From positions 1 through 25,555 of the IMG/VR virus record IMGVR_UViG_3300010354_000577: a stretch of DNA of 25,555 bases. One strand, written 5' to 3'. The position numbers and the translations under genes are program-made. Below are positions 7,365 to 25,555 of the stretch, in pieces (within the stretch, counting starts at the first letter, position 1; every line of letters starts with the position of its first letter). The stretch is from a virus. Under the pieces are notes generated by a model that was not told the origin of the DNA, ran no database searches, and worked only from the letters and a program-made list of their open reading frames with translations.

Positions 7365-7370
7365 TTGGGC

Positions 7371-10300
7371 GTGACTGTTACGATTAAGTCTAAAGAGCAA
7401 CTATTAGGCGCTTGGGTCAGAAGAATAAAAAATAATACTGATATCACTGACTTTCAGCCAGGTGGTGCGTTAGTTACGCTTATGGAAGCAATCGCACAGC
7501 AGGTTTTTCAGTCACAATTATCTGTATTAAAAGTGCTTGAATTGACAGAAATTGATAATTTAACGGATACAAGACTTGATGATTTTGCAGAGTCATTAAA
7601 AATCCCCAACGGTCAAGGCGGAATTGGAAGACAAGCTGCTCTTCAATCCACTGGTTCAGTAGTTATTGGTTCTGCCTTTAAAAAAATTTCTACCCGCGCA
7701 TATGCTGGTAAGCCAGCTCCTTACGCAGGTTCAAAAACTTTATATGTTCAAGATGCTTATGAGATGTCTTTAATTCTTAATGCGGCTAACAAAAAAATTT
7801 ACATTGGTCGCAACACGGTCGATGCTTTTGAAGGCCCAATTTCTTTTTCAAATATTACATCTACAGGTTCTTATTGGATTATTGAATTAGTAGATCCTCT
7901 TACTAAAGACCATTCATATACCGATGAAATTGTGTTAGCTCAAGGGGGAGATCGCACAATTAACGCTTCGACGGTTGTGCAAGTACCAGCTTATTCTGAT
8001 TCAATAGCAATACAGTTTACGACCGATGTGTCGGTTGTAATGCCGGATGGGGAAGATTCTGTTACAGTTCCAGTAACTTGTACTCAGTTTGGCGTAGTAG
8101 GAAATGTAGCATCAGGTGCTGTCACAGAATTTGGTTCAGTTCCGTTTAATGGAGCCGTAGTTGTTAATCAGCAGGCTTTTGTTAATGGAGCAGATACCGA
8201 ATCAGACGCTTCTTTGCGACAAAGAATAAAAGATTATCCTAATACGTTGGCTCGCGGCACTGTAGGGGCAATTAAGTCGGCGCTTCTTACGGTGGTCGAT
8301 GCAGATACTAAGAAAAAAGTAACTTCGGTTTCTGTTATTCGTCCCCTTGAGCAAGGAGAGCCAACCACCGTATATATTGATGACGGTACTCTTTTAGAGC
8401 CAATTTTTTCTGGCCAAGATTATGAACTATTATTAGCAAAAGCTTCTGGATTGGAGCAAAGTTTTAAAACCGCTCAGGCACCAATTACACCCGCCGTTGT
8501 GGCGGCGACAAAAGCTGCTCCATATGTATTACAAGCAGGAATGACGATTACTTTTTTGATTGATAATATTCCGTATGTATATACAATCACACCTTCAAAT
8601 TATAAAGATATTACCGCTGCTACTGCATACGAACTTGTTCGTGATTTAAATTCAGATGCAGAAGGAATTTTAGATTTTCGAGTTATTGATAATGGAGCAA
8701 AAATAGTTGCAATTGATAGAACAAATGAAGCCGAAGAAATTACTGTAATTTCAGGTACTTTACAAAATACTCTTGGCTTTTCGACTGTTTCTCAAAGACC
8801 AATTTATTTATACAAAAATGGAGTTTTACAGTCATTTAAAGGAAAAACAGCAACAATTTCTTCAAATCCTTTTACAAATTGGGATATTGACGGAAGTTCA
8901 TATACTGGATTGCAAGCAACAATTGATAATGTATTAGTCAATATTTCTGATATCACAGAACTTGATTTTCAAACACGGTTTGGCGTTTCTATGATAGTTG
9001 CTACCGCAGATAATTGGCGCGAAATTTTGCAATCAAAAATTCCTGGTGTAACTGTTATTTTTCAAGATAATAGATTTATCATTACTTCTAATAAAGAAAA
9101 TAACTCATCAAGCGAAATTATTATTAATAGTGGTAGCTGGATAGGCTCGGCATCTATTTTTAGTCAATCTCTTTCAGAACGCTCCTCTGTTGGTTCTTCG
9201 AAAAATTACACATTTAATAGATATACCGGTGACATTAGATTTGTTTCTAGGTTACAAGCTAATGATATTATTGAAATTGCATCTTTAAGCACGAGGGCTT
9301 TTGCTCAATCTGCAAATACCAGCACTGGAAAATATGACACTTCAAATGATTATCCCGGATTTGGCCAAGCAAAATTTATTATTGCTGTAGATGATTTCGC
9401 TGTTATTAAAGATACTGGTAACACTAACACGGGACTTATTAAAGTAATTAATGTAGATACTAACCAATTAACTGTATCGCTAAAAGATGAGCTAGAAAAT
9501 AGCTTATTTAATGCTGCCGAGGTCGGCGATTATCTATATTTAACTTCATTAAAAGAAAACGACACGACTTTACTGCCAAATAGCATCCCCAATGATGCTG
9601 TTGGTTTTTATCGTATTAAAAAAATTATAAATAATTCTTCTGCGTCTAAAACAATAGTAATTGAAACTTCCTCTTATCAAGCAACGGTTGGTTTTGCCTT
9701 GAATGATGAATATGTAACTTCCTACAAAGGAAATGCAGTATTTAGGATTTTTTCATCTAAAGCAACGCCACAAGTAGTAACTTTGCCAAACTCAACGGCT
9801 TTGTTAGTAGAAGATGCCGTTAATTTTATTAACGAACAAATTGTGGGTGCAGCTACAGAAAGAATTTCTGGAGAATATTTTCTTTTAAGAACAAATACTT
9901 ATATTAACGGTTCTTTATCTGTGCTCGCTACATTTGGAAAAGCAAACAACGTATTTTCCGTTGCTAACTCAACCAATCTTCAGGCACACGTTGGTTCGTC
10001 CAATTCAGCAGAATTAGATGGTATATTTCCAGTTGTAACTGAATCTGTTTTACCGGATTTGCCAAACACAGGACGTGCTTTTAGAGATTACCTAAAAATA
10101 CAAAAAAATTATACAGAAATTACACAAACATCTGAAAATCCAATAATTGAAGCAGCTACAAATATTACAAGTTATCCAATGGGTTTTCAAGAACTTTGGG
10201 TTACAGGAAAACTTTTAGGATGGACAGGAAGAACTTATAACAATGAAACAACTGCGCCATTTGAGGGTTTTTTAAGAACAGATAGCGCAATCAAACCAAT

Positions 10301-13300
10301 TGGTGCGATTAGCGTTACGGACGATAATATTAACAGATACACAAATATTTCTTTTCGCCTTGAAGATTTAGCGGCAACGCCATATGATAAATTTATTGTA
10401 GAAATAGATTTAAGCTCAAATAAAACAGTTACTTTGCCTCTTTATAAAAAAGCAATCATCTCCGACGAACAACTTTTAGGCACTTCTGGTAAAGGTCAAA
10501 AATATCAATTTACTTTAAAAGATCCTGAAGATTTTAATAAAGAATTTTTTGATATCACTAGTCCTTTTAAAAATTTTGATTTTAATGATTTTAAAATGGT
10601 TGGTAAATCAGTTGGGATTTATAAACTTAATAGTTCTGGCTTAGGGCCAGCAGAAACTGCTTTAGTTGTTCGGTCTGCTTCTTTTGGCGGAGCAAATAGA
10701 ATTAAATTGAATATTTTATATCCACAATCTCCATCTCAACCAGATATTAAAATATCGCATTCTAATTCATACGGAACCGAAGAGGTAATTACTGCTGTAA
10801 ATGTTGAAATGCCCTCTCAATCTGTTATTCCTTCAACTATTTTTAATAGCGGTAAATACAAAGTTACAAATGTAACAAGCGTTAATAATTTAACAGATAT
10901 TACTTTATCTACTCAAACAGATGCAATTACGGCAACAGCGAATATGCAAAATATTGGTTTATTTGATATTTTGTTTTTTGCAAGAGCAGTTGGAGTGCCG
11001 AGTTTTCCAGGAGTTTTAGGTAATAATATTGAGCTAGTTATTCAAGATTCTGGACATACAGGTTCACCTGGAACCGTTACAATGATAGCTCAATCAACTA
11101 AAAAAGTTACATTAGATTTAAACGGTTCGTCGCCAGACGCTTCCGCTTTGTCTAGTGCTTTATCTGGTAGCACGTATTTTGCATCAGCTAGCGGTACAGG
11201 TTCATTAAGTTTAATGCCTACTGCTTATAACCCTATTTCAGAAATAGCAGCAAAAATTGATAATCCTTACTATACTTTGACTTTTAATCAAATTAACTTT
11301 AATCCTAAAATTCGCGGTGCTTCGGGCAATGCGTGGTCTTTTAAAGTCATTAATACTGGTTCTGGCAGTGTCGTAGCTTCTGTGGATACAGTAAATAAAG
11401 TCATTACTATTGATTTAAAAGGAAACTTAACCGTTGGATTATCTAGTCTTCAAGGGCTATTAGATGGCATTTCTGGATTTAATGGAGCAGTATCCGTTAC
11501 TGTTAAAAATACATCTGTATATTTAGCCGTTTCTGGGCCAACATTTTTTTCCGGAGGTGTTACTAAACAAAATACATTATTTACGTCGGGCGGTGCCGAT
11601 GCAACAAGCGGTGTTTTTGAATCAGGATTATTTTTAGTAAACAATTTATTGCAAGTACAAGGAATTCAGTCAGAAGCTGGAGCCATTGACGGCTCAATGC
11701 CAATTGGTGTTTGGCCAATAGTTGAAAAACCTTCATTAGGTGAGATTAAAATTCGCGTACCAGATTATATTGGGTTAAGAACAATAGGACCAACACTTGG
11801 CGCGGTTTATGTAGATAAAGAATTTGATGCGGCCACATATCAACTTCAATCGTTTCCAATATTGTCTAAAAATATTCAAAATCTCGCCGATGCTATAAAT
11901 CAATATTTGGTAGAAGCTCCTATAGTTACATCACAAATTTTAGGAAATTCAACTGCAGACGTTTTAATGCCCAGTGGTGTAAGTGAATTGCCCAGGTCAA
12001 CATATATTAATTATACAAATGTTTCTTCTTTGCCATCTTATGTAAATTCTCCGTCGGAGGCAATAAAATTTCATTCTTTTTCAGCGAATCGCTCAGAGGG
12101 AGCGTCTATTTATGATTATAATCCAACTAATGGATGGATTCATTCAGTTGTTCAATCTGTTAATTCTATTTTTCCAAAAGACTTAACTACCTCTTATTCA
12201 TCTATAGGAGAAGAAGTTTATTTGCTGCCAACAAATGTTGCTACTTTCAGTAGATGGGCAAATTTTGCTCCAGCTTCGGCTATGCCAACTCAAGCAATCG
12301 TAAGTCGAGCAGAAAAAGCAACCAAAGTACAAATTGCCTCAAAGCTTCGAGGCACTAAAGGCGTTGTTTATCCAAAATCAAACTTAACCAACAGGTTTAC
12401 AACAACTTTATTGGATTCCGCTTCCGCAGAAAATGGTTCTGTATATTTTTCATTGCTTACATCTCAAACAAAACAGTTGCCTAAAAATTCATTAGTAAAA
12501 ATATCTAATGCTCTAACTACTGATTTGTTTAGGCCATTTCGCGTTGCATCTCCAGTTGAAAATATTACTGCAGCAAACACTTTGGATGAAAAAACTTGGT
12601 TTCGCGTAAATACCAATATAATTTATGAAAAAGTAAACGACCCAAATAAACCTAATATTGGTCGTTTATATTTTTTAAGAAATGGTCAATCCGCAAGTTT
12701 TACCAGCGGCTCAACCACAATTACTATACCATCTACTGAACCTTTAGATTCTGGCAGCATTCAAATACAAGCAGGTATACCATCAACAGGGCTTGCGACA
12801 ATTACTTATACTGGTTCAAAAACTTTATCCGCCAGAATTGGCGATATGATGTACATAAGCCCAGGTTCAAGTTTTCCTGCAGAAGTTAAATGTCCTCAAA
12901 TTCCGTTTGGTCTTTCTATGCAAACAAATGTATATGCAAGTGGACTTACAGGATATCCCGGATATCCCGTGGTACAAGTCACGGATGAAAATGAAATTAT
13001 TGTAATTGCTCCAAATATTACAGGAAACAGCACAACTACAATTAGCACAGAGACTGATTTGGTGTTTGTGCCAAGTTTATATACAGAAAAAAACATTAAA
13101 ACTCATTACAGTGCAGGACCAAATGGTGTTGAAATTGTTGGCACCACATCTACTTCTGGGGTTTCTGCTACATGGATTAGCGATAAATATTCATATGGTA
13201 TTCTTAAAAAATTATCAAATGGTTTTTCAGCCGTTATTCTTTCAAACACCTCTAATGATATAGTAGAACCAACTGCCGCCTTAGATTCAATGATGCTAAA

Positions 13301-14294
13301 CGAGTGCGGCGTAAATTCCGATGACTATGTGTTTTTAAATGGTTTTGGTTCGGGAGCAGATGGTCAATATCAACTCGTAGCTCATGATGGAAAAAATACA
13401 ATAATTTTATATAATTCAATTTTGCCATTAGAGGACGTACTAGACGATGGAAAAATTTGGTGGGGCAAAAAATTAGGTGTTACTGGATATTCTAACCCGG
13501 CATCGCCTCCATCGATTCATTCTATTGACCCTCGTCCTATTAGAATAATAGACGCAGAATCAGTTGTAGTTGGCAGTAAAATTAAAATTGCTTCCGCTGC
13601 TCTTGGCTCGTCAAATTGGTTTGAGCAGTCTTTAATTGGAATTTGGTCAATAACTAATATTGGATGGTATAGTTCATCAAGCGGTGTTTGTCAGTTTATT
13701 GAATTTGAAATACCAACTGGAGCACCATCTGGCATAGCTCAAGTTATAGTTGGTTTAGCTAATACTGAAAATATTTCTTTTGTAGAAAAAGAACCGTTTA
13801 GTGCTTTTAGACTTGTGCAAGGTTGGTCCGTTGATCCTAAAAATACAGAAAATTCACAAATTTATATGACACCGTCTAAGTCTTATCAAAAAATTTCTTC
13901 ATCTTTAGGCACAGAAATAGAGTGTTTAAATAAGTTAAATTACGAAGCTGTTCCTAAAACAGGAATTGATGGATATAAAATTTTTGGGGGCTTAATTCGA
14001 GAAGCTCAAAGAACCCTTGATGGTGTTTCAACGTCGATTAATCGTTATCCGGGTGTTAAAAGCACAGGAACAGATGTGTCGGTGCTTCCGCCTATCCCTA
14101 GAGCAGTTGCTGTTACATTTAAAGTAAGAACGCGGGACGGCTTATCTATCAACGTTTTAGCTAATTTGATTAGATCGTCTGTTACAACTTTTATTTCATC
14201 ATTGGGACTAGGCGACTCAGTTATTTTGTCAGAACTTATTGGTTTGGTACAAGATATTCCGGGAGTTGTATCAGTAGAAATTATTAATACGTAG
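7371..14294 (+). CDS. Giant baseplate J-like wedge protein (gp6/gpJ family), ending at an in-frame TAG
   Basis: 2307 residues from GTG at 7371, chosen because AAGGAG at 7359-7364 gives six-base spacing. Residues 1-340 match the baseplate J family: a helical start, LTDTRLDDFAESLKIPNG near 65, then DTESDASLRQRIKDYPN and ARGTVGAIKSAL near 275-305, leading to a VSVIRP strand. The last 65 residues (from about 2243) match the J C-terminus: AVTFKVRTRDGL, a helix, then IPGVVSVEIIN. About 1,900 residues of beta-rich repeats lie between, far beyond P2 J (about 300) or T4 gp6 (660). They include three copies of a roughly 80-residue unit (near 390-470, 512-598 and 787-868) and two GN-type repeats (near 1213 and 1313). 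The protein should form the wedge ring that triggers sheath contraction. The TAG stop is suspicious; see the extension entry. Confidence 0.85.
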   Translation: MTVTIKSKEQLLGAWVRRIKNNTDITDFQPGGALVTLMEAIAQQVFQSQLSVLKVLELTEIDNLTDTRLDDFAESLKIPNGQGGIGRQAALQSTGSVVIGSAFKKISTRAYAGKPAPYAGSKTLYVQDAYEMSLILNAANKKIYIGRNTVDAFEGPISFSNITSTGSYWIIELVDPLTKDHSYTDEIVLAQGGDRTINASTVVQVPAYSDSIAIQFTTDVSVVMPDGEDSVTVPVTCTQFGVVGNVASGAVTEFGSVPFNGAVVVNQQAFVNGADTESDASLRQRIKDYPNTLARGTVGAIKSALLTVVDADTKKKVTSVSVIRPLEQGEPTTVYIDDGTLLEPIFSGQDYELLLAKASGLEQSFKTAQAPITPAVVAATKAAPYVLQAGMTITFLIDNIPYVYTITPSNYKDITAATAYELVRDLNSDAEGILDFRVIDNGAKIVAIDRTNEAEEITVISGTLQNTLGFSTVSQRPIYLYKNGVLQSFKGKTATISSNPFTNWDIDGSSYTGLQATIDNVLVNISDITELDFQTRFGVSMIVATADNWREILQSKIPGVTVIFQDNRFIITSNKENNSSSEIIINSGSWIGSASIFSQSLSERSSVGSSKNYTFNRYTGDIRFVSRLQANDIIEIASLSTRAFAQSANTSTGKYDTSNDYPGFGQAKFIIAVDDFAVIKDTGNTNTGLIKVINVDTNQLTVSLKDELENSLFNAAEVGDYLYLTSLKENDTTLLPNSIPNDAVGFYRIKKIINNSSASKTIVIETSSYQATVGFALNDEYVTSYKGNAVFRIFSSKATPQVVTLPNSTALLVEDAVNFINEQIVGAATERISGEYFLLRTNTYINGSLSVLATFGKANNVFSVANSTNLQAHVGSSNSAELDGIFPVVTESVLPDLPNTGRAFRDYLKIQKNYTEITQTSENPIIEAATNITSYPMGFQELWVTGKLLGWTGRTYNNETTAPFEGFLRTDSAIKPIGAISVTDDNINRYTNISFRLEDLAATPYDKFIVEIDLSSNKTVTLPLYKKAIISDEQLLGTSGKGQKYQFTLKDPEDFNKEFFDITSPFKNFDFNDFKMVGKSVGIYKLNSSGLGPAETALVVRSASFGGANRIKLNILYPQSPSQPDIKISHSNSYGTEEVITAVNVEMPSQSVIPSTIFNSGKYKVTNVTSVNNLTDITLSTQTDAITATANMQNIGLFDILFFARAVGVPSFPGVLGNNIELVIQDSGHTGSPGTVTMIAQSTKKVTLDLNGSSPDASALSSALSGSTYFASASGTGSLSLMPTAYNPISEIAAKIDNPYYTLTFNQINFNPKIRGASGNAWSFKVINTGSGSVVASVDTVNKVITIDLKGNLTVGLSSLQGLLDGISGFNGAVSVTVKNTSVYLAVSGPTFFSGGVTKQNTLFTSGGADATSGVFESGLFLVNNLLQVQGIQSEAGAIDGSMPIGVWPIVEKPSLGEIKIRVPDYIGLRTIGPTLGAVYVDKEFDAATYQLQSFPILSKNIQNLADAINQYLVEAPIVTSQILGNSTADVLMPSGVSELPRSTYINYTNVSSLPSYVNSPSEAIKFHSFSANRSEGASIYDYNPTNGWIHSVVQSVNSIFPKDLTTSYSSIGEEVYLLPTNVATFSRWANFAPASAMPTQAIVSRAEKATKVQIASKLRGTKGVVYPKSNLTNRFTTTLLDSASAENGSVYFSLLTSQTKQLPKNSLVKISNALTTDLFRPFRVASPVENITAANTLDEKTWFRVNTNIIYEKVNDPNKPNIGRLYFLRNGQSASFTSGSTTITIPSTEPLDSGSIQIQAGIPSTGLATITYTGSKTLSARIGDMMYISPGSSFPAEVKCPQIPFGLSMQTNVYASGLTGYPGYPVVQVTDENEIIVIAPNITGNSTTTISTETDLVFVPSLYTEKNIKTHYSAGPNGVEIVGTTSTSGVSATWISDKYSYGILKKLSNGFSAVILSNTSNDIVEPTAALDSMMLNECGVNSDDYVFLNGFGSGADGQYQLVAHDGKNTIILYNSILPLEDVLDDGKIWWGKKLGVTGYSNPASPPSIHSIDPRPIRIIDAESVVVGSKIKIASAALGSSNWFEQSLIGIWSITNIGWYSSSSGVCQFIEFEIPTGAPSGIAQVIVGLANTENISFVEKEPFSAFRLVQGWSVDPKNTENSQIYMTPSKSYQKISSSLGTEIECLNKLNYEAVPKTGIDGYKIFGGLIREAQRTLDGVSTSINRYPGVKSTGTDVSVLPPIPRAVAVTFKVRTRDGLSINVLANLIRSSVTTFISSLGLGDSVILSELIGLVQDIPGVVSVEIINT

Positions 14295-14384
14295 CCACAA
14301 GCAGTTGACGGGAAGATTCCAGTAGCAGATAATGAAAAGGCAATAGTTATTGACCCAGCAACTAACATTAACGTAGGACAATAA
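14292..14384 (+). other. In-frame extension of the J-like gene beyond a single TAG codon
   Basis: After TAG (14292-14294) the same frame stays open for 29 codons to TAA at 14382-14384, one base before the ATG of the next gene. The extension contains GKIPVADNEKAIVIDP and ends in NINVGQ, which resembles the usual ending of J-type wedge proteins (an IPV...NE-A...DP...I-V pattern). The full gene would then abut its neighbour, as elsewhere in this operon. The next gene's ribosome site (AGGA near 14374) sits inside it. The TAG may be leaky, suppressed, a recent nonsense mutation or a sequencing error. No other TAG interrupts the long structural genes, so wholesale reassignment of TAG is unlikely. 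Confidence 0.75.
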
Positions 14385-14385
14385 A

Positions 14386-16911
14386 ATGTCTAATGTTCGT
14401 CAATACTTGCCAAAAATCTCTAAACCAAACAAAGAATCGGCACCATTTTTAAATGCTTTTTTAGATGGTGCTGATGAGCTTATTGAAAGTTTAGAAGTTT
14501 ATACTTCTTACGCCCAAGACCAGTTCTTTTTTACCACTGCTGATGCAGAATATATTTTTAAGTTAGCCGCAAGAAATGGTTTTTATCTCCCTAAAGATGC
14601 TGGGTTAAATATTGATGGGCTAAAACCACTTGCACCCTTGATGATTAATAAACCTAAAACAACTTTAGAATTATTAAATCAAGTTTTAGAAATTTATTTT
14701 TCTCAACAACTTTGTCGTCCAAATTTAACCTGTGCCCAAACAGAGCCATATAGGCTAAAACAAAATGATGAATTAATTGTAAAAACTAGAGAAACTATTC
14801 ATAAACTAACCATTGACGCAACTTTATTTTCAAATCTAAATAACGTTAGTGCCACAGAACTATCTACTTACATTAACAGTGTACAGGGCGATTATTTAGC
14901 AACTGTATATTTTGACAGAAACATTAATAAAAATAAAATTCGCTTGATTCCAAACGGCACAGGAGCAAACGAAATTATTCAGGTATTGGGTGGAACTTTA
15001 CAAAATTTATTGCTTTTTCCGAATGTTGTTGAAACCACAAACACAACTCAAACCGCTTGGACAATATCTAAAATTGCAGATTATTCTGATATTGTTAAAT
15101 TTACATATTCTACTGGACCAACGCCCAGTGTTTTTAAAGTATCTATAGGAGATATAGTTACTTTTCGAAATCAATTTGATGTTGGATCTTCTGGAGTAGC
15201 TAGTCTTTATTTGACTGATGAATTAGGTGAACAAATTATAGACAATAATGGCAATTTTGTAACTGTAGAAGTAGATTTAATTGAAGGTAATTATTCAACA
15301 TTAAACGGTTCTTTTGAAGTAATTGACGTTGGATACGATTACTTTAGTATTAGAAATAAATATTTAAAACTACCAGTAAATAACGAAGGAATTTTAATTC
15401 AATTATCTTCAAGAGATGTAATTTTTACAAAAAATATTCCAAGCAGAGTCTATCAACAACCAAATTTTTCATATTTAACTGAAATGACAGATGACCAAAT
15501 TACGGTTACTGTTCCTGCTGTGCCTCCAATTGTAAAAAGATTTTTAGAGGGCTCTTGGCATATTTATGGAGCAAAACATACAATATTAAGTTTTACTCGA
15601 AACTCTGTGCAAATCAATCCTCTTACATTGACACAATTACCTCAAAATAATAATACTTTTAGGCTTCAATCATCGTCCATGGCAATTGATTTTTTAAAGA
15701 AAAATTTTCAAATTAACACTATAAATTCAACTTCTGGTATAATTTCAATTAGTTTAGCCGATGAGTATGATGTATTTCCTTATACTACACCATTTTTAAT
15801 TGGCACCAATCCATTTTATTGTGATTTTAATAGCAACTTAGTAGAAATTACATTCCCTTATAGGCACGGTTTATGGGTAAATTCAAAAATTATTTTAAAC
15901 TCTACAGCAACAAACTCAGACAGCGGAATTAACTTAAACGGTTCGTGGCGAGTAGAAAAAATACTATCACCTACCAAAGTTGTTATCAGAATTAATTCAA
16001 AAAATATAGGACAGCCCCCTACAGTTACTGGCTCTTTGTATAGTTTGGGAAATAAAAAATATAGAATTGTATACACATCTGGCACTAGTTTAAATTTATC
16101 TAAACTTAATACAGTTGGTAAAAAGTTTAAATTTTTTGACGACGGGTCTTCAACTATTTTTAATAACTACATATGGGAAAAACTAAAAACACGAACTCAC
16201 ATTGTTGCCGCTGTAGGTTCCAACAGTATTGATTTTGAAGTTTTAGATAATTTAAGTGTTTTACCAAACGAACTAATAACTACTGGTGTTAAAACACAAA
16301 CTTCAGTAATTGTGTGGGGCGGTTCTAGCTCTACCTATTATTTTAATAAAAACGATCAAGAAAATATTGATTTGTTGAAAAATTTAGAATTAGTTGTAAC
16401 TGACTTTTTAAAACCAACTAGTGAATTATACTTAGGTTCGTATCTTTACGATCCACAAGGGATATACTATAAATTTTTGCCAAGCGAAGTTGGCACAAAA
16501 ACAACAGCGCAAATATTTAAAGGCGAAAGCGGAATTATATTGCCCGTATCTAATGTCGAAGGTTTTAGTACCGATGGGGGATATTTGATACTTGATTATG
16601 GGACAGCAAAAATTGAAGGTCCATTAAAATATTCAACAATTTCAAGCAATCAAATAATAATTGACCCTTCTTATATTTTTACAAAAACACATTTAGTTGG
16701 AGCAACAGTTAGAGATGTAAAACAATTACAAGCTGTAGTTCCAAAAGAAAATGGGAAACAATATCAACCATTTTTGACTGGCACTTCTGCCGCTAGGGCC
16801 AGTTTTTTTGAAATACTAAATTCAATTATTTCCGCTGGCGTATTTGTTAAAGAAGATGTACTCTATCCAGAACTACGATACTCAGATGAGAGTTTAAAGC
16901 CTTATGAATAG
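14386..16911 (+). CDS. Baseplate wedge / tail protein I-like (gp7-type position)
   Basis: An 841-residue protein directly after the J-like gene, the place of gpI in P2-type and gp7 in T4-type phages. The N-terminus (residues 1-80) is helical and gpI-like, with AEYIFKLAARNGFYLPKDAG near 55-75. Residues about 129-212 form a unit ending in GTLQNLLLFPN that resembles the repeat in the J-like protein ending in GTLQNTLGFST. The rest is beta-rich with recurrent 'lnG-x-f/w-x-v' strands (TLNGSFEVIDV, NLNGSWRVEKI). A helical C-terminus ends in TAG immediately followed by TAA. It would join the J-like protein to the periphery and fibre. The gpI/gp7 equivalence rests on synteny and the N-terminus; identity is unclear beyond that. 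Confidence 0.6.
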   Translation: MSNVRQYLPKISKPNKESAPFLNAFLDGADELIESLEVYTSYAQDQFFFTTADAEYIFKLAARNGFYLPKDAGLNIDGLKPLAPLMINKPKTTLELLNQVLEIYFSQQLCRPNLTCAQTEPYRLKQNDELIVKTRETIHKLTIDATLFSNLNNVSATELSTYINSVQGDYLATVYFDRNINKNKIRLIPNGTGANEIIQVLGGTLQNLLLFPNVVETTNTTQTAWTISKIADYSDIVKFTYSTGPTPSVFKVSIGDIVTFRNQFDVGSSGVASLYLTDELGEQIIDNNGNFVTVEVDLIEGNYSTLNGSFEVIDVGYDYFSIRNKYLKLPVNNEGILIQLSSRDVIFTKNIPSRVYQQPNFSYLTEMTDDQITVTVPAVPPIVKRFLEGSWHIYGAKHTILSFTRNSVQINPLTLTQLPQNNNTFRLQSSSMAIDFLKKNFQINTINSTSGIISISLADEYDVFPYTTPFLIGTNPFYCDFNSNLVEITFPYRHGLWVNSKIILNSTATNSDSGINLNGSWRVEKILSPTKVVIRINSKNIGQPPTVTGSLYSLGNKKYRIVYTSGTSLNLSKLNTVGKKFKFFDDGSSTIFNNYIWEKLKTRTHIVAAVGSNSIDFEVLDNLSVLPNELITTGVKTQTSVIVWGGSSSTYYFNKNDQENIDLLKNLELVVTDFLKPTSELYLGSYLYDPQGIYYKFLPSEVGTKTTAQIFKGESGIILPVSNVEGFSTDGGYLILDYGTAKIEGPLKYSTISSNQIIIDPSYIFTKTHLVGATVRDVKQLQAVVPKENGKQYQPFLTGTSAARASFFEILNSIISAGVFVKEDVLYPELRYSDESLKPYE

Positions 16912-16945
16912 TAAAATCAACATATTGTATTCTTAAGAGGGTTGT

Positions 16946-19471
16946 ATGTCTGTTTTATCAAGAGTAAATTACGTTGGCGGATTGCGGGTAGATTTGCCTG
17001 ATTTATTAGCTTCTGATTCTTACATTACTAATGATATTAGAAATATTATTAGTAGTTTAACAGGCAATACATCATATACGGTACAAGGACTTGAAGTCAC
17101 CAATTGGTCTGGTTTAACAGTTTTTGTTAATATTGCAGATGCGTTAATTTTTTGTCCAAATAACCCCGTTGCTCCCTTTTATAAAGGATTAGTCGGAGAT
17201 ACTGAACTGACGATTACACTTCAGTCTAGTTCTGAAATTTACTTAGAATTAATATTAGAAACAACAACAAGTGGCCCTGTCACAAAAGGGTTTTTTGATT
17301 CACTTGCAATTACAGCCGATTCTCCAGCAGGGTCAGAGTTTACTGAAACAATCGACTCACAAGTTATTGTTGTGCCAAAATTAGTTCAAAAATTTGGCGG
17401 ATTTACGCCTAATTCTATTAAAATAGCTTATATTGAAACCAATGCTTCTCAGGTAACCAAACTCGTAGATTCACGAGAATTATTTTTTAGATTAGGCACG
17501 GGCGGAGCTGTGCCTAACAAATCGGCAAATTTTCCATGGGATTCCTCAGTTAGGCAAGAGCCAGTAGAATCATCAACTTCTCCGTCTCAACTAACTAATA
17601 TTAATCCAAATTCTGTTTATTATTCTAATACAATAAACGGAACTATTTTAAACGACAAGGGCATTAAGACTTTAAAAGATTGGCTTAATGCAATTATGAC
17701 AACTTTTAAAGAAGTAAAAGGAACTCCAGTTTGGTATCAAAGCGCAGGAACTTCTGCAGGATTTCCCTTAAATCTTTCTTTACTGTCTCTTTTTAGAGAT
17801 AGTACGGCTGGACATTCTATAGTAGCTGATTCTTCTAATACTATTTATTGGGGGACAACTACCGGAGTTATTGAAAATTATTTACACAGTCAATGTACTG
17901 GCTCAACAAGGGTGCGTTGGCAAGCGAACTACGGTTACCCAATTACATGGGAGTTGGGCGGAACTTATTCTTCAAATAGAATTTATTCAAACAACAATTT
18001 TCAATCTCCTGCGTTAAGCGAGGGTGATTCTTTATATTTGGCACTGCAGCGCGATGTTGTGTTAACTGACGAAATTGTAGAATGGTGGCCTATTTCCTCA
18101 CCAGGAGGCTCATTGCCAGTTGGCGTAACTCCTTTAGACCCAAATAAATCTGTAAGTGGATTGGGACATTTTGTATCAGTAGCGGTTGGGGATTATATTA
18201 AACGGGAGTCTGAAGGAATTTTAGCGTATTACAGAGTAAATCGCCTTTTGTATAACGACGATACCGTAGTTGATGTAGAGGGTACGGTTGCAGATAGTAG
18301 CGTTAAAGCAGTGGAGCTAGATCGAGCAAAATTGCCCTCCATTTTGTCAGGAATTGAAGAGAAATACACTTATTTTCGAGCAAGATATTCAAATGCCGAT
18401 TTAATTGTGCGCGGCCCAATGTCTGCCGAACCGGCTAATGATGTTGATTTGTATTGGTTAGGCAGAAGAACTGGTTCTTCTTTTTATTTTAGGGATTATG
18501 GCACCTTATCTCAAGGCGAAGAAGTTGAAATTTTAGAAGACAGTGCTCAAGACCAAAACGAAAATAATTTTGGCTCAGAGCCTATATTGGTATTAAACCC
18601 CGATGTTGCTTATGCTGCTGAAGTTTTGTCTTTAAACCCTAACGGAACGGCAATTTCCGGAACTTATTTAAGTATATATAAACGCAAAACCAACAACAGA
18701 ACAAACTCCGACTTAACAACAAACCAAACAGTTTTTGTTTATGAAATTGAAGATTTAATTTCGTTAGGCGCGAATCAAGAATTATGGGTTAAAGTATCAG
18801 ATGAATACTCTGCAACACCATATACGCTTATCGCAGGAAATGTAACTGATTCAAACGTTACTAACAAATATGAAGTAAGAAACGCAAACGACGCCCCGTT
18901 AAGAAATTATGACAATAAATCTGTTTTTATGCTTTGTAAACAAGTAACAATTAATAGTAAATCTTACGTTGTGTTTTTTGATGGCACAGTAGTTGGCGAG
19001 GTCGGCAGAGCAACCCCCCAAAGATTGCAAATTGAAGACGTTTGGATTCATGATACTGATGTCGATGTTATATCAACATCAACTCCAGCGAGCCTTTTTG
19101 CAAGTGCAGATAATATTAAAATTGGACAATCTTCAAGCATTACTAGAATAGAAGGTGCCCAATCAGTTAAAAGAAAAAATGTATCAGGTTCTTATACTGT
19201 AACACCGACCGATTATATTCTTTCTGTTGACACTTCTAGCATATTAGCTACAATTTCTTTACCAGCAATTAGTGCGGTGGAAGATGGGCATACAGTAATT
19301 GTGAAAGATAAGTCAAATAATTCATATACTAATACCATTACCGTATCCCCTAATGGTACTGATAAAATTGATAATGCTGCAGTCGGATACGTAATTCAAT
19401 CCGACGGCGCGTCTTATATTTTTGTAGCAAATAAAGAAGATGGTTCTCCATATAATTGGGAAATTATTTAA
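16946..19471 (+). CDS. Tail fibre / receptor-binding baseplate protein
   Basis: An 841-residue, beta-rich protein with an SD (AAGAGGG) before the ATG. The N-terminus (NYVGGLRVDLPDLLASDSYI) looks like an attachment region of baseplate-linked fibres. The last 100 residues carry a well-known fibre-tip pattern: GSYTVTPTDYILSVDTSS, then ISLPAISAVEDGHTVIVKD, then TITVSPNGTDKID and a final NW near the end. That beta-sandwich is common at the C-termini of phage tail fibres and is probably host-contacting. No chaperone-type autoproteolytic end or collagen-like repeat is visible. It follows the I-like gene, as H follows I in P2. Receptor and specificity cannot be read from sequence. Confidence 0.7.
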   Translation: MSVLSRVNYVGGLRVDLPDLLASDSYITNDIRNIISSLTGNTSYTVQGLEVTNWSGLTVFVNIADALIFCPNNPVAPFYKGLVGDTELTITLQSSSEIYLELILETTTSGPVTKGFFDSLAITADSPAGSEFTETIDSQVIVVPKLVQKFGGFTPNSIKIAYIETNASQVTKLVDSRELFFRLGTGGAVPNKSANFPWDSSVRQEPVESSTSPSQLTNINPNSVYYSNTINGTILNDKGIKTLKDWLNAIMTTFKEVKGTPVWYQSAGTSAGFPLNLSLLSLFRDSTAGHSIVADSSNTIYWGTTTGVIENYLHSQCTGSTRVRWQANYGYPITWELGGTYSSNRIYSNNNFQSPALSEGDSLYLALQRDVVLTDEIVEWWPISSPGGSLPVGVTPLDPNKSVSGLGHFVSVAVGDYIKRESEGILAYYRVNRLLYNDDTVVDVEGTVADSSVKAVELDRAKLPSILSGIEEKYTYFRARYSNADLIVRGPMSAEPANDVDLYWLGRRTGSSFYFRDYGTLSQGEEVEILEDSAQDQNENNFGSEPILVLNPDVAYAAEVLSLNPNGTAISGTYLSIYKRKTNNRTNSDLTTNQTVFVYEIEDLISLGANQELWVKVSDEYSATPYTLIAGNVTDSNVTNKYEVRNANDAPLRNYDNKSVFMLCKQVTINSKSYVVFFDGTVVGEVGRATPQRLQIEDVWIHDTDVDVISTSTPASLFASADNIKIGQSSSITRIEGAQSVKRKNVSGSYTVTPTDYILSVDTSSILATISLPAISAVEDGHTVIVKDKSNNSYTNTITVSPNGTDKIDNAAVGYVIQSDGASYIFVANKEDGSPYNWEII

Positions 19472-20620: not shown

Positions 20621-21775
20621 ATGAGCAGCAAAATTAATATTGGTATTACTTTTAGCGTAGAAGATTATAAAAAATCAAGTTTTTTTAATAACGGAATTAT
20701 GCAAAATGTTGTCACTTTAAAAGAAATTTTTCAAAAATGTCAACAGGTTAATAAAAGTTATTTTATTAATACTCATTCTCAGGCAACAAAAACTTCTCCG
20801 GAATCAACAGCGTGGGAAGAGTACGCTCAAGATATTATTACCAAAGAAGAAGCAAAAGAAAAATGTGATTTGATCGTTGTTTGTCAGGGTTCTCTGTATC
20901 TTGATGAATACAAAGTATATAAAAAATTAGGAAAAAAAATCGTAAAACAAATACTTGGCGCAGAGCTTGCGATTTTTCATGAACGATGTCTTTTTGATAT
21001 CCCAACTGGGGGTATATATAAAAGAAATGATAATGTTGATGCTGTGTGGATGAGTGCGCATTATTATAACAGAGATAAATATTTTTTTAAAAGCATTTTT
21101 AATAATTGCGATGTTGTCGAAGCTCCGTATATTTGGGATTCAAGATTTATAGATAAACATCTAGATACATTAAAAAAATCAAAACAAAATCTTACTGGCA
21201 CTTATGCTCCAAATGGAAATCTTAAAAAAAGAATTTCAACCATGGAAGCAAATTTAAGCGTTGTAAAAACTTGTATCACTCCAATTATTATTGCTGAGCT
21301 ATTAGAAAGAAAATATCCCGAAGTTTTAGAATTTTTTAGTATTTTTGGCGGAGAAAAAATTAAAAACAAGCCCGATATGATTGATTTTGTTCTTAATTTT
21401 GAAGTAAATAAAAATAAAAAATGTTTTTTTGAATCTAGGTATCCAGTTGTTTGGACTTTGTTTAACCACACAGATATTGTATTGTCCCACCAGAATCAAA
21501 ATGAATTAAACTATTTGTATTTAGATGCAGCTTGGCTTGGTTTTCCAGTTGTGCATAATAGCCCAATGATGAGAGAGTTAGGTTGGTATTATCCAGACAA
21601 TAATGCGGATGTAGCGATTGAACACATTAAATATATTGCAGAAAACTTTGATACAATCGACTATGTTGATGAAAAATATCTAAAGAAATCTAGACAATTT
21701 GCTGAGCGATATTTTCCATCAAATATTCAAAATATTAAAGAATATGAAAGACTTATAGAAAATGTATATTCATAA
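20621..21775 (+). CDS. DUF2827-family protein, predicted GT-B glycosyltransferase-like (copy A)
   Basis: A 384-residue protein with AAGGAG upstream and a full-length match to my memory of DUF2827 proteins of Burkholderia and phages. Markers in order: INIGITF start and NNGIMQN (family 'W/F-NNGI-QN'); VDAVWMSAHYY near 145; VEAPYIWDSRF near 167; KKRISTMEANLSVVKTC near 200-220; HTDIVLSHQNQNELNYLYLD near 283-300; GFPVVHNSPMMRELGWYYPDNN near 307-330. The C-terminal part resembles the nucleotide-sugar half of GT-B transferases, so the inferred role is sugar transfer to a host surface or virion molecule. The donor and acceptor are unknown and no activity is proven as far as I know. A paralogue starts at 24835. 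The 3' end overlaps the start proposed for the next gene. Confidence 0.75.
   Translation: MSSKINIGITFSVEDYKKSSFFNNGIMQNVVTLKEIFQKCQQVNKSYFINTHSQATKTSPESTAWEEYAQDIITKEEAKEKCDLIVVCQGSLYLDEYKVYKKLGKKIVKQILGAELAIFHERCLFDIPTGGIYKRNDNVDAVWMSAHYYNRDKYFFKSIFNNCDVVEAPYIWDSRFIDKHLDTLKKSKQNLTGTYAPNGNLKKRISTMEANLSVVKTCITPIIIAELLERKYPEVLEFFSIFGGEKIKNKPDMIDFVLNFEVNKNKKCFFESRYPVVWTLFNHTDIVLSHQNQNELNYLYLDAAWLGFPVVHNSPMMRELGWYYPDNNADVAIEHIKYIAENFDTIDYVDEKYLKKSRQFAERYFPSNIQNIKEYERLIENVYS
21192..21253 (+). repeat. 62-nt block identical to 25397-25458 (DUF2827 copy A)
   Basis: All 62 bases match the corresponding segment of the second DUF2827 gene at a fixed offset of 4205, although the flanking parts of the two genes differ at many silent and replacement sites. 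It encodes the segment ending in KKRISTMEAN. Perfect DNA identity, not just protein similarity, points to recent exchange. Confidence 0.9.
21281..21350 (+). repeat. 70-nt block identical to 25486-25555 (DUF2827 copy A)
   Basis: 70 of 70 bases match at the same 4205 offset, up to the window edge, so the identity may continue further. It encodes the segment from PIIIAELLERKYPE onward. The 27 bases between this and the previous block differ at about half of positions. Confidence 0.9.
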
Positions 21776-22655: not shown

Positions 22656-22868
22656 ATGACTGATTCAAAATGGCTAGAAGCACAAAAAATATATGGCCGA
22701 GTAAGAGAACTTTTAGTTAAAGATGGTATGACAATGGAACAGGCTCAAAAAACCTTGGAAACACTCATTATGTTTGTTGCAGGCAGCGAGCTTTCAAAAG
22801 AAGAAACAAATATTTATTTAGCTAAATTTATTGAGGCAATGTTAAAAGGCGATAAGCCGCAATGCTAG
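22656..22868 (+). CDS. Unknown all-helical small protein, 70 aa
   Basis: Three or four predicted helices (DSKWLEAQKIYGRVRELLVK, MTMEQAQKTLETLIMFVAG, SKEETNIYLAKFIEAMLKG) with no signal peptide. It ends in Cys then TAG. The TAG (22866-22868) is part of TAGGAGG, the ribosome site of the next gene, so here TAG is almost certainly a true stop. That bears on the interrupted J-like gene upstream. Function unknown. Confidence 0.7.
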   Translation: MTDSKWLEAQKIYGRVRELLVKDGMTMEQAQKTLETLIMFVAGSELSKEETNIYLAKFIEAMLKGDKPQC

Positions 22869-24166: not shown

Positions 24167-24808
24167 ATGAATTTTTCTTTATGGATAAGTCACATGCGCC
24201 AATCATCTGCCAAGTTTTTGATGTTCGTCGTTGCTGTTTTTTTACTAGCTAGTTGTGGAGAAAACACAGAAACAAAAATAATTGAGCTTGAAAAAAAAAT
24301 AAATACTCCGTTTTATATTGATAAAGTAAAAGTAGATTCACAATTACTTCCGCATGTTATGGAATTTGCTGGATATTGTGAAAGATTTAAAATTTCTGAA
24401 TTATGCCAAAAAAACTTTAATAATACTCTTTCAGTTCGTTTAGTTCCATCATTTAAAGAAAAAAACGTTGTTGGCAAATGTTTTGTTGATTTTTATACTG
24501 GCAAAAGATGGGTTGAAGTTCTCGATTGGAAAGATTATGAGTCTTTATTAACTAAAACGCTTGTAATGCACGAGATGGGGCACTGTGTTTTGGGCGACCC
24601 TTACCCACATTTTGATAATGATTATGATATTATGAATTCTTATCTGCTTCCACAAAAAATTATACAAATGTATTGGCCAATACTTATTCAAAATATGTTT
24701 TTAAGGGTAGGCGGCAGTTTGTTGACAGAAGACATAAAAGATTCTAATGTAAGTAGTGTTATTTTGGATGAGTTTGGCAATTTTTCTTGCGAAAAAGAAA
24801 AATTTTAA
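24167..24808 (+). CDS. Lipoprotein with metzincin-like zinc metalloprotease motif
   Basis: A 213-residue protein. The N-terminus has a type II signal ending in LLASC (Cys30). H135-E-M-G-H139 is the zinc-binding HExxH motif; Gly144 and His148 follow, then DYDIMNSYL with Met156, resembling the third zinc ligand and Met-turn of metzincins. Spacing (H-E-x-x-H-x3-G-x4-H) is slightly longer than the classical x2-G-x2-H. Other cysteines (71, 80, 105, 140, 208) may form disulfides in the periplasm. Likely role: an envelope-anchored protease acting on a host surface or periplasmic protein; substrate unknown. ATG 24167 has GGAG at five-base spacing; ATG 24194 would shorten the N-region and also fits. 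Two bases separate it from the preceding gene. Confidence 0.65.
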   Translation: MNFSLWISHMRQSSAKFLMFVVAVFLLASCGENTETKIIELEKKINTPFYIDKVKVDSQLLPHVMEFAGYCERFKISELCQKNFNNTLSVRLVPSFKEKNVVGKCFVDFYTGKRWVEVLDWKDYESLLTKTLVMHEMGHCVLGDPYPHFDNDYDIMNSYLLPQKIIQMYWPILIQNMFLRVGGSLLTEDIKDSNVSSVILDEFGNFSCEKEKF

Positions 24809-24834
24809 AACATTTATACATAATAGGAGTTTTT

Positions 24835-25555
24835 GTGTCAAAAAAAATCAATATTGGTATTACGTTGCAAGTCGAAGATTACAAAACTTCTAGTTTTTTT
24901 AGCAATGGTATTAAACAAAATATTATTACGTTGAGGGAAGTTTTTGAAAATTGTAAAAATGTTAATAAAAGTTATATTATTAACACTTCGTCAAAGTTCA
25001 GCGCAATTGCCGGCACACATTGGGAAAAATATGCTGAATATATTATTACCAAAGAAGAAGCAAAAAAGAAATGCGATTTAATTGTAGAAGCGCACGGGTC
25101 GTTATTAATAGATGAATATAAAAAATATAAAAAATTAGGAAAAAAAATCGTAAAACAAGTGCTTGGCGCAGAACTAGCAATGTTTAACGAACGGGTGCTT
25201 TTCAATATTCCCGCTGGTGGTATTTATAAAAAAAATAACGACGTTGATGCCACATGGATTAGTCCTCATTTTTACGAAAGAGATAAACATTTTTTTGAAT
25301 GTTTATACGAATGCAACGTTTTAGAAGCCCCATATATATGGGATTCAAGATTTATTAATATGCACATTGAGTCTTTAAAAAAAAATAAACAAAATTTTAC
25401 TGGCACTTATGCTCCAAATGGAAATCTTAAAAAAAGAATTTCAACCATGGAAGCAAATATTAATATGGTAAAGACTTGCTCTGTGCCAATTATTATTGCT
25501 GAGCTATTAGAAAGAAAATATCCCGAAGTTTTAGAATTTTTTAGTATTTTTGGCG
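24835..25555 (+). CDS. DUF2827-family protein, copy B (3' end outside window)
   Basis: Starts at GTG 24835 with AGGAG (24825-24829) five bases upstream and runs open to the window edge (240 residues seen of about 384 expected). It aligns without gaps to copy A over its visible length: same NIGIT start, FFSNGIKQN, ITKEEAK, KKIVKQVLGAELAMF, APYIWDSRFI and the KKRISTMEAN block. Differences are concentrated upstream of 25397; two later blocks are DNA-identical to copy A. Predicted role as for copy A, perhaps with a different sugar or acceptor. It follows the protease gene by 26 bases. Confidence 0.75.
   Translation, partial: MSKKINIGITLQVEDYKTSSFFSNGIKQNIITLREVFENCKNVNKSYIINTSSKFSAIAGTHWEKYAEYIITKEEAKKKCDLIVEAHGSLLIDEYKKYKKLGKKIVKQVLGAELAMFNERVLFNIPAGGIYKKNNDVDATWISPHFYERDKHFFECLYECNVLEAPYIWDSRFINMHIESLKKNKQNFTGTYAPNGNLKKRISTMEANINMVKTCSVPIIIAELLERKYPEVLEFFSIFG
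25397..25458 (+). repeat. 62-nt block identical to 21192-21253 (DUF2827 copy B)
   Basis: Partner of the copy A block; identical at every base and in the same codon frame. Bases just upstream (25396 and before) differ from copy A. Confidence 0.9.
25486..25555 (+). repeat. 70-nt block identical to 21281-21350 (DUF2827 copy B)
   Basis: Partner of the second copy A block; identity runs up to the end of the window, so its full length is unknown. Confidence 0.9.

Follow-up and report, generated by a model that had tools for sequence, protein, structure and literature searches.

An in-frame TAG codon, private to one viral contig, 30 codons short of the usual end of a baseplate wedge gene

The sequence analysed here (the window) is the whole of the IMG/VR virus record IMGVR_UViG_3300010354_000577, with a length of 25,555 bases. 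Because its relatives reach 163 kb, the record is probably a fragment of a larger genome. On its profile matches, the gene at 7365-14384 codes for a very long wedge protein of the Baseplate_J/gp6 type: it matches PF04865 (Baseplate_J) in Pfam with an E-value of 1.8e-18 (67.2 bits, compared with a curated cut-off of 21.1) and phrog_6 in PHROGs with an E-value of 1e-26. A previous reading of the window from its letters and open reading frames alone (the sequence-only reading) had called the gene J-like, and these matches agree. The features discussed below are as follows.

7365..14294, plus strand: J/gp6-type baseplate wedge gene up to and including the TAG (2,309 aa, TTG start), with full-length relatives in viral contigs
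7365-14384, plus strand: the same wedge gene through to the TAA
14292..14294, plus strand: in-frame TAG, private to this contig
14295..14384, plus strand: conserved 29-codon C-terminal tail and TAA (from alignments and codon comparison), untranslated if the TAG is obeyed
14088..14381, plus strand: predicted coding region of a gp6-type C-terminal domain (residues 61-158 of the model, with the stop at residue 129)
14375..14378, plus strand: AGGA, a possible ribosome-binding site that may be due to chance
14386..16911, plus strand: the next gene, 841 aa

After the TAG, the frame runs on for 29 codons to a TAA at 14382-14384, and a single base separates this TAA from the ATG at 14386. The TAG lies 30 codons short of the gene's natural end, within its last 1.3%, and is the only in-frame internal stop among the 20 ORFs scanned in the window (about 8,300 codons). 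This is the layout that the sequence-only reading had described. The remaining window genes that have homologues align to them without interruption. An antisense ATG open frame of 107 aa also spans the stop site (14045-14368, minus strand) and is probably a chance occurrence.

Scans of viral contigs provided ten close and six distant homologues, to which we added Myxococcus phage Mx1, the one annotated isolate that matches the wedge C-terminus (n = 17). Three of the ten close relatives (L010-L012) look like a single population, so that the close set is not wholly independent. Alignment of the C-terminus with related phages, a check proposed at the outset, gives a sense codon at the TAG position in all 17 homologues and a stop in none. 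The residue concerned is Leu in each of the ten close relatives (codons TTA, CTA, CTC and CTG) and varies in the distant ones. One base change can explain the stop, as had been suggested, but an origin from CAG (Gln) is not what the Leu of the close relatives indicates. The 29-codon extension can be aligned over its whole length with the C-termini of the 16 viral contigs and of Mx1, and in all 17 the tail stops level with the TAA at 14382 or close to it, the close relatives all ending in VGQ. Judged by these alignments, the extension is the genuine C-terminus of the wedge protein and not a chance open frame; its identification as the ordinary end of the protein was correct. Several hundred additional bases are found near residue 1231 of the J-like protein in three relatives (L008, L015 and L016).

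The close relatives also provide a view of the junction with the downstream gene. In them, only one or two bases separate the J stop from the next ATG, and TTGG lies upstream, an arrangement that suggests translational coupling. In the window, the TAG shifts termination 91 bases upstream. The AGGA located seven bases 5' of the ATG at 14386 occurs in this contig alone, being absent from the close relatives, and stems from a synonymous GTA codon; since GTA is common in the wedge gene (64 of 184 Val codons), chance alone can explain the motif. The adjoining genes at 14386-16911 and 16946-19471 are both exactly 841 aa long, have no Pfam or PHROGs match and are mutually dissimilar. A pair of paralogous genes of the DUF2827 family (PF10933), with 70% identity over 243 aa, is present 3' of the tail genes (20621-21775 and 24787-25554, the latter cut by the window end).

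Of the 29 tail codons, 14 differ synonymously and 6 nonsynonymously from those of the nearest relative; in the region just upstream, the corresponding figures are 54 and 13 of 87 codons. Residues unique to the window number 2 of 29 in the tail against 11 of 128 upstream, proportions on which we rejected an old stop followed by a decaying tail. The sole non-conservative change in the tail, a Gln, also occurs in an intact homologue (L049). Without drift in the tail, the stop should be either very young, or wrong, or not obeyed (possibly because it is suppressed by the host).

The stop would be wrong if the phage carried a sense codon and the TAG were simply an incorrect base introduced into the contig during assembly or consensus calling. 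We regard such an error as a serious candidate, if a rather unlikely one. It would fit a TAG that is private to one metagenomic contig, a tail without decay and homologues that are all open, and no near-identical copy was found for comparison. A DNA pattern allowing any codon at the TAG site retrieved neither a second copy of the phage nor a second TAG-bearing sequence from viral_contigs, the variable middle of the gene gave no match above 65%, no relatives were found in genome_contigs and there was no DNA match among phage isolates. However, no other gene in the window is broken, and the stop falls at the very end of a long gene. Of the single-substitution routes to a stop across the window, only 8.3% are 30 codons or less from a gene end, and the position therefore gives mild support to a real, tolerated change rather than a random base error.

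Judged by gene ends, both this phage and its relatives use TAG as a normal stop. The gene that follows the wedge gene terminates in TAG (16909-16911), level with its close homologues, and TAG is also found there in seven of the eight relatives checked; the sequence-only reading was right about the stop at 22866 but had missed this nearer one. A tandem TAG-TAA (16909-16914) closes this 841-aa gene, again as in seven of the eight relatives checked. For the gene at 22656-22868, the terminal TAG is level with the TAA of its homologues. Among homologous gene ends in relatives, 26 of 139 are TAG (some contigs being counted twice because of overlapping loci), and in the 163-kb relative, whose coding density under the standard code is an ordinary 0.87, TAG is a minor stop (6 of 138 ORFs).

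Recoding was rejected on the basis of genes that end in TAG together with the single internal TAG, and a changed code in which TAG is a sense codon can be given almost no weight. It has in its favour that the in-frame TAG lies in a late structural gene, a class in which recoded phages do carry TAG (PMC10607447). However, in the 136-kb recoded phage phAss-1, 41 ORFs contain TAG and three genes for suppressor tRNAs are present (PMC10607447), compared with one internal TAG in the entire window. A phage using code 15 would be expected to have internal TAGs in many genes and not to use TAG as a stop; here, only 1 of 20 ORFs contains one, and two genes (with ends at 16911 and 22868) terminate in TAG, level with their homologues. 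The 163-kb relative, with its ordinary coding density, also argues against a changed code. The event is local, as had been anticipated.

An amber suppressor supplied by the host, or encoded elsewhere in the phage genome, could nevertheless read the TAG partly or fully and yield both a short and a full wedge protein. We consider this improbable. In its favour, the tail behind the stop is intact and constrained, and both the host and the part of the genome beyond the record could carry a suppressor. On the other hand, the TAG is conserved in no relative, and the same codon is a plain stop for the adjoining gene. Programmed readthrough generally conserved in the group was rejected, the stop being private to the contig (0 of 17 homologues). 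Searches for tRNA genes of any kind were negative in the window (the genome being incomplete), in 10 relative records using the Rfam tRNA model, and in the 163-kb record, which is one of these, using ARAGORN. A phage-borne suppressor tRNA with a CUA (DNA: CTA) anticodon, frequent but not universal in code 15 phages and proposed as a check, was thus found neither in the window nor in these records. Stimulatory RNA structure was also rejected: around and 3' of the TAG, folding is no better than that of shuffled sequence. We found no report of baseplate amber readthrough in the literature. The earlier suggestion that readthrough produces two wedge forms receives no support from these results.

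To see what termination at the TAG would remove, we examined an AlphaFold2 model that covers the C-terminal 158 residues of the read-through protein, built from an alignment of 13 sequences (the window and relatives); an earlier model, based on nine close sequences, was of poor quality (mean pLDDT 48.5) and was set aside. The model is confident from about residue 61 onward and has the fold of a gp6-type C-terminal domain. It matches the C-terminal domains of wedge proteins, including those of phi812 (9euf_I, Z 11.3), T4 gp6 (3h2t, 11.0), diffocin (10.9) and R-type pyocin (5ces, 10.1), and these matches run mostly through the last residue. Unrelated ferredoxin-like proteins align only over about residues 63-131, limits that mark the core remaining after truncation. 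In the model, the stop falls just past this ferredoxin-like core, and truncation would remove the last two strands (143-146 and 154-157). In T4, the C-terminal domains of gp6 from adjacent wedges form pairs, and the baseplate is held together by the gp6 ring (PMC3004832).

Our preferred explanation, to which we attach a probability of roughly 0.58, is a private and recent nonsense allele that terminates the wedge gene. It would have arisen very recently at a single site in this phage lineage, where close relatives have Leu. Read as a stop, the TAG would give a 2,309-aa product that retains the ferredoxin-like core without the last two strands and, by analogy with T4 gp6, weakens the contact between wedges. 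Such an allele is supported by the homologues, all open through a full tail, by the tail's lack of decay, by the use of TAG as a stop in the window and relatives, by the negative searches for tRNA genes and RNA structure, by the position of the TAG near the gene end and by the limited loss that the model predicts. Against it, the tail is conserved down to Mx1, so its loss should cost the phage something, and a second TAG-bearing sequence was not found in viral_contigs. Such a change would probably harm the phage, mildly or strongly, and be a minor or short-lived variant in the sampled population.

In a single metagenomic contig and a known protein family, a nonsense allele or base error is an ordinary finding and matters little. 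If readthrough were true, this would be a natural case in which one amber codon sets two forms of a ring-forming baseplate protein. It is very doubtful that a host or private phage suppressor allows the lineage to obtain two wedge proteins from this single gene, of which one would lack the last two strands of the inter-wedge domain.

The window shares with TAG-recoded phages (phAss-1 and crAss-like phages using code 15) an in-frame TAG within a late structural gene. Those phages, however, have many internal TAGs and often suppressor tRNAs, whereas here there is one internal TAG, the tRNA searches of the window and relatives were negative, and TAG serves as a gene end as well. The Baseplate J-like protein of Myxococcus phage Mx1 (OR576727) is 28.6% identical over the matched parts and has a C-terminal tail of like kind, but it is open through the tail and shorter (a 5,778-bp gene). 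With Baseplate_J (PF04865) and T4 gp6-type wedge proteins in general, the protein shares a J-like domain, a predicted gp6-type C-terminal domain and a location in a tail gene cluster; it differs in being far longer and, in this contig only, in its early stop.
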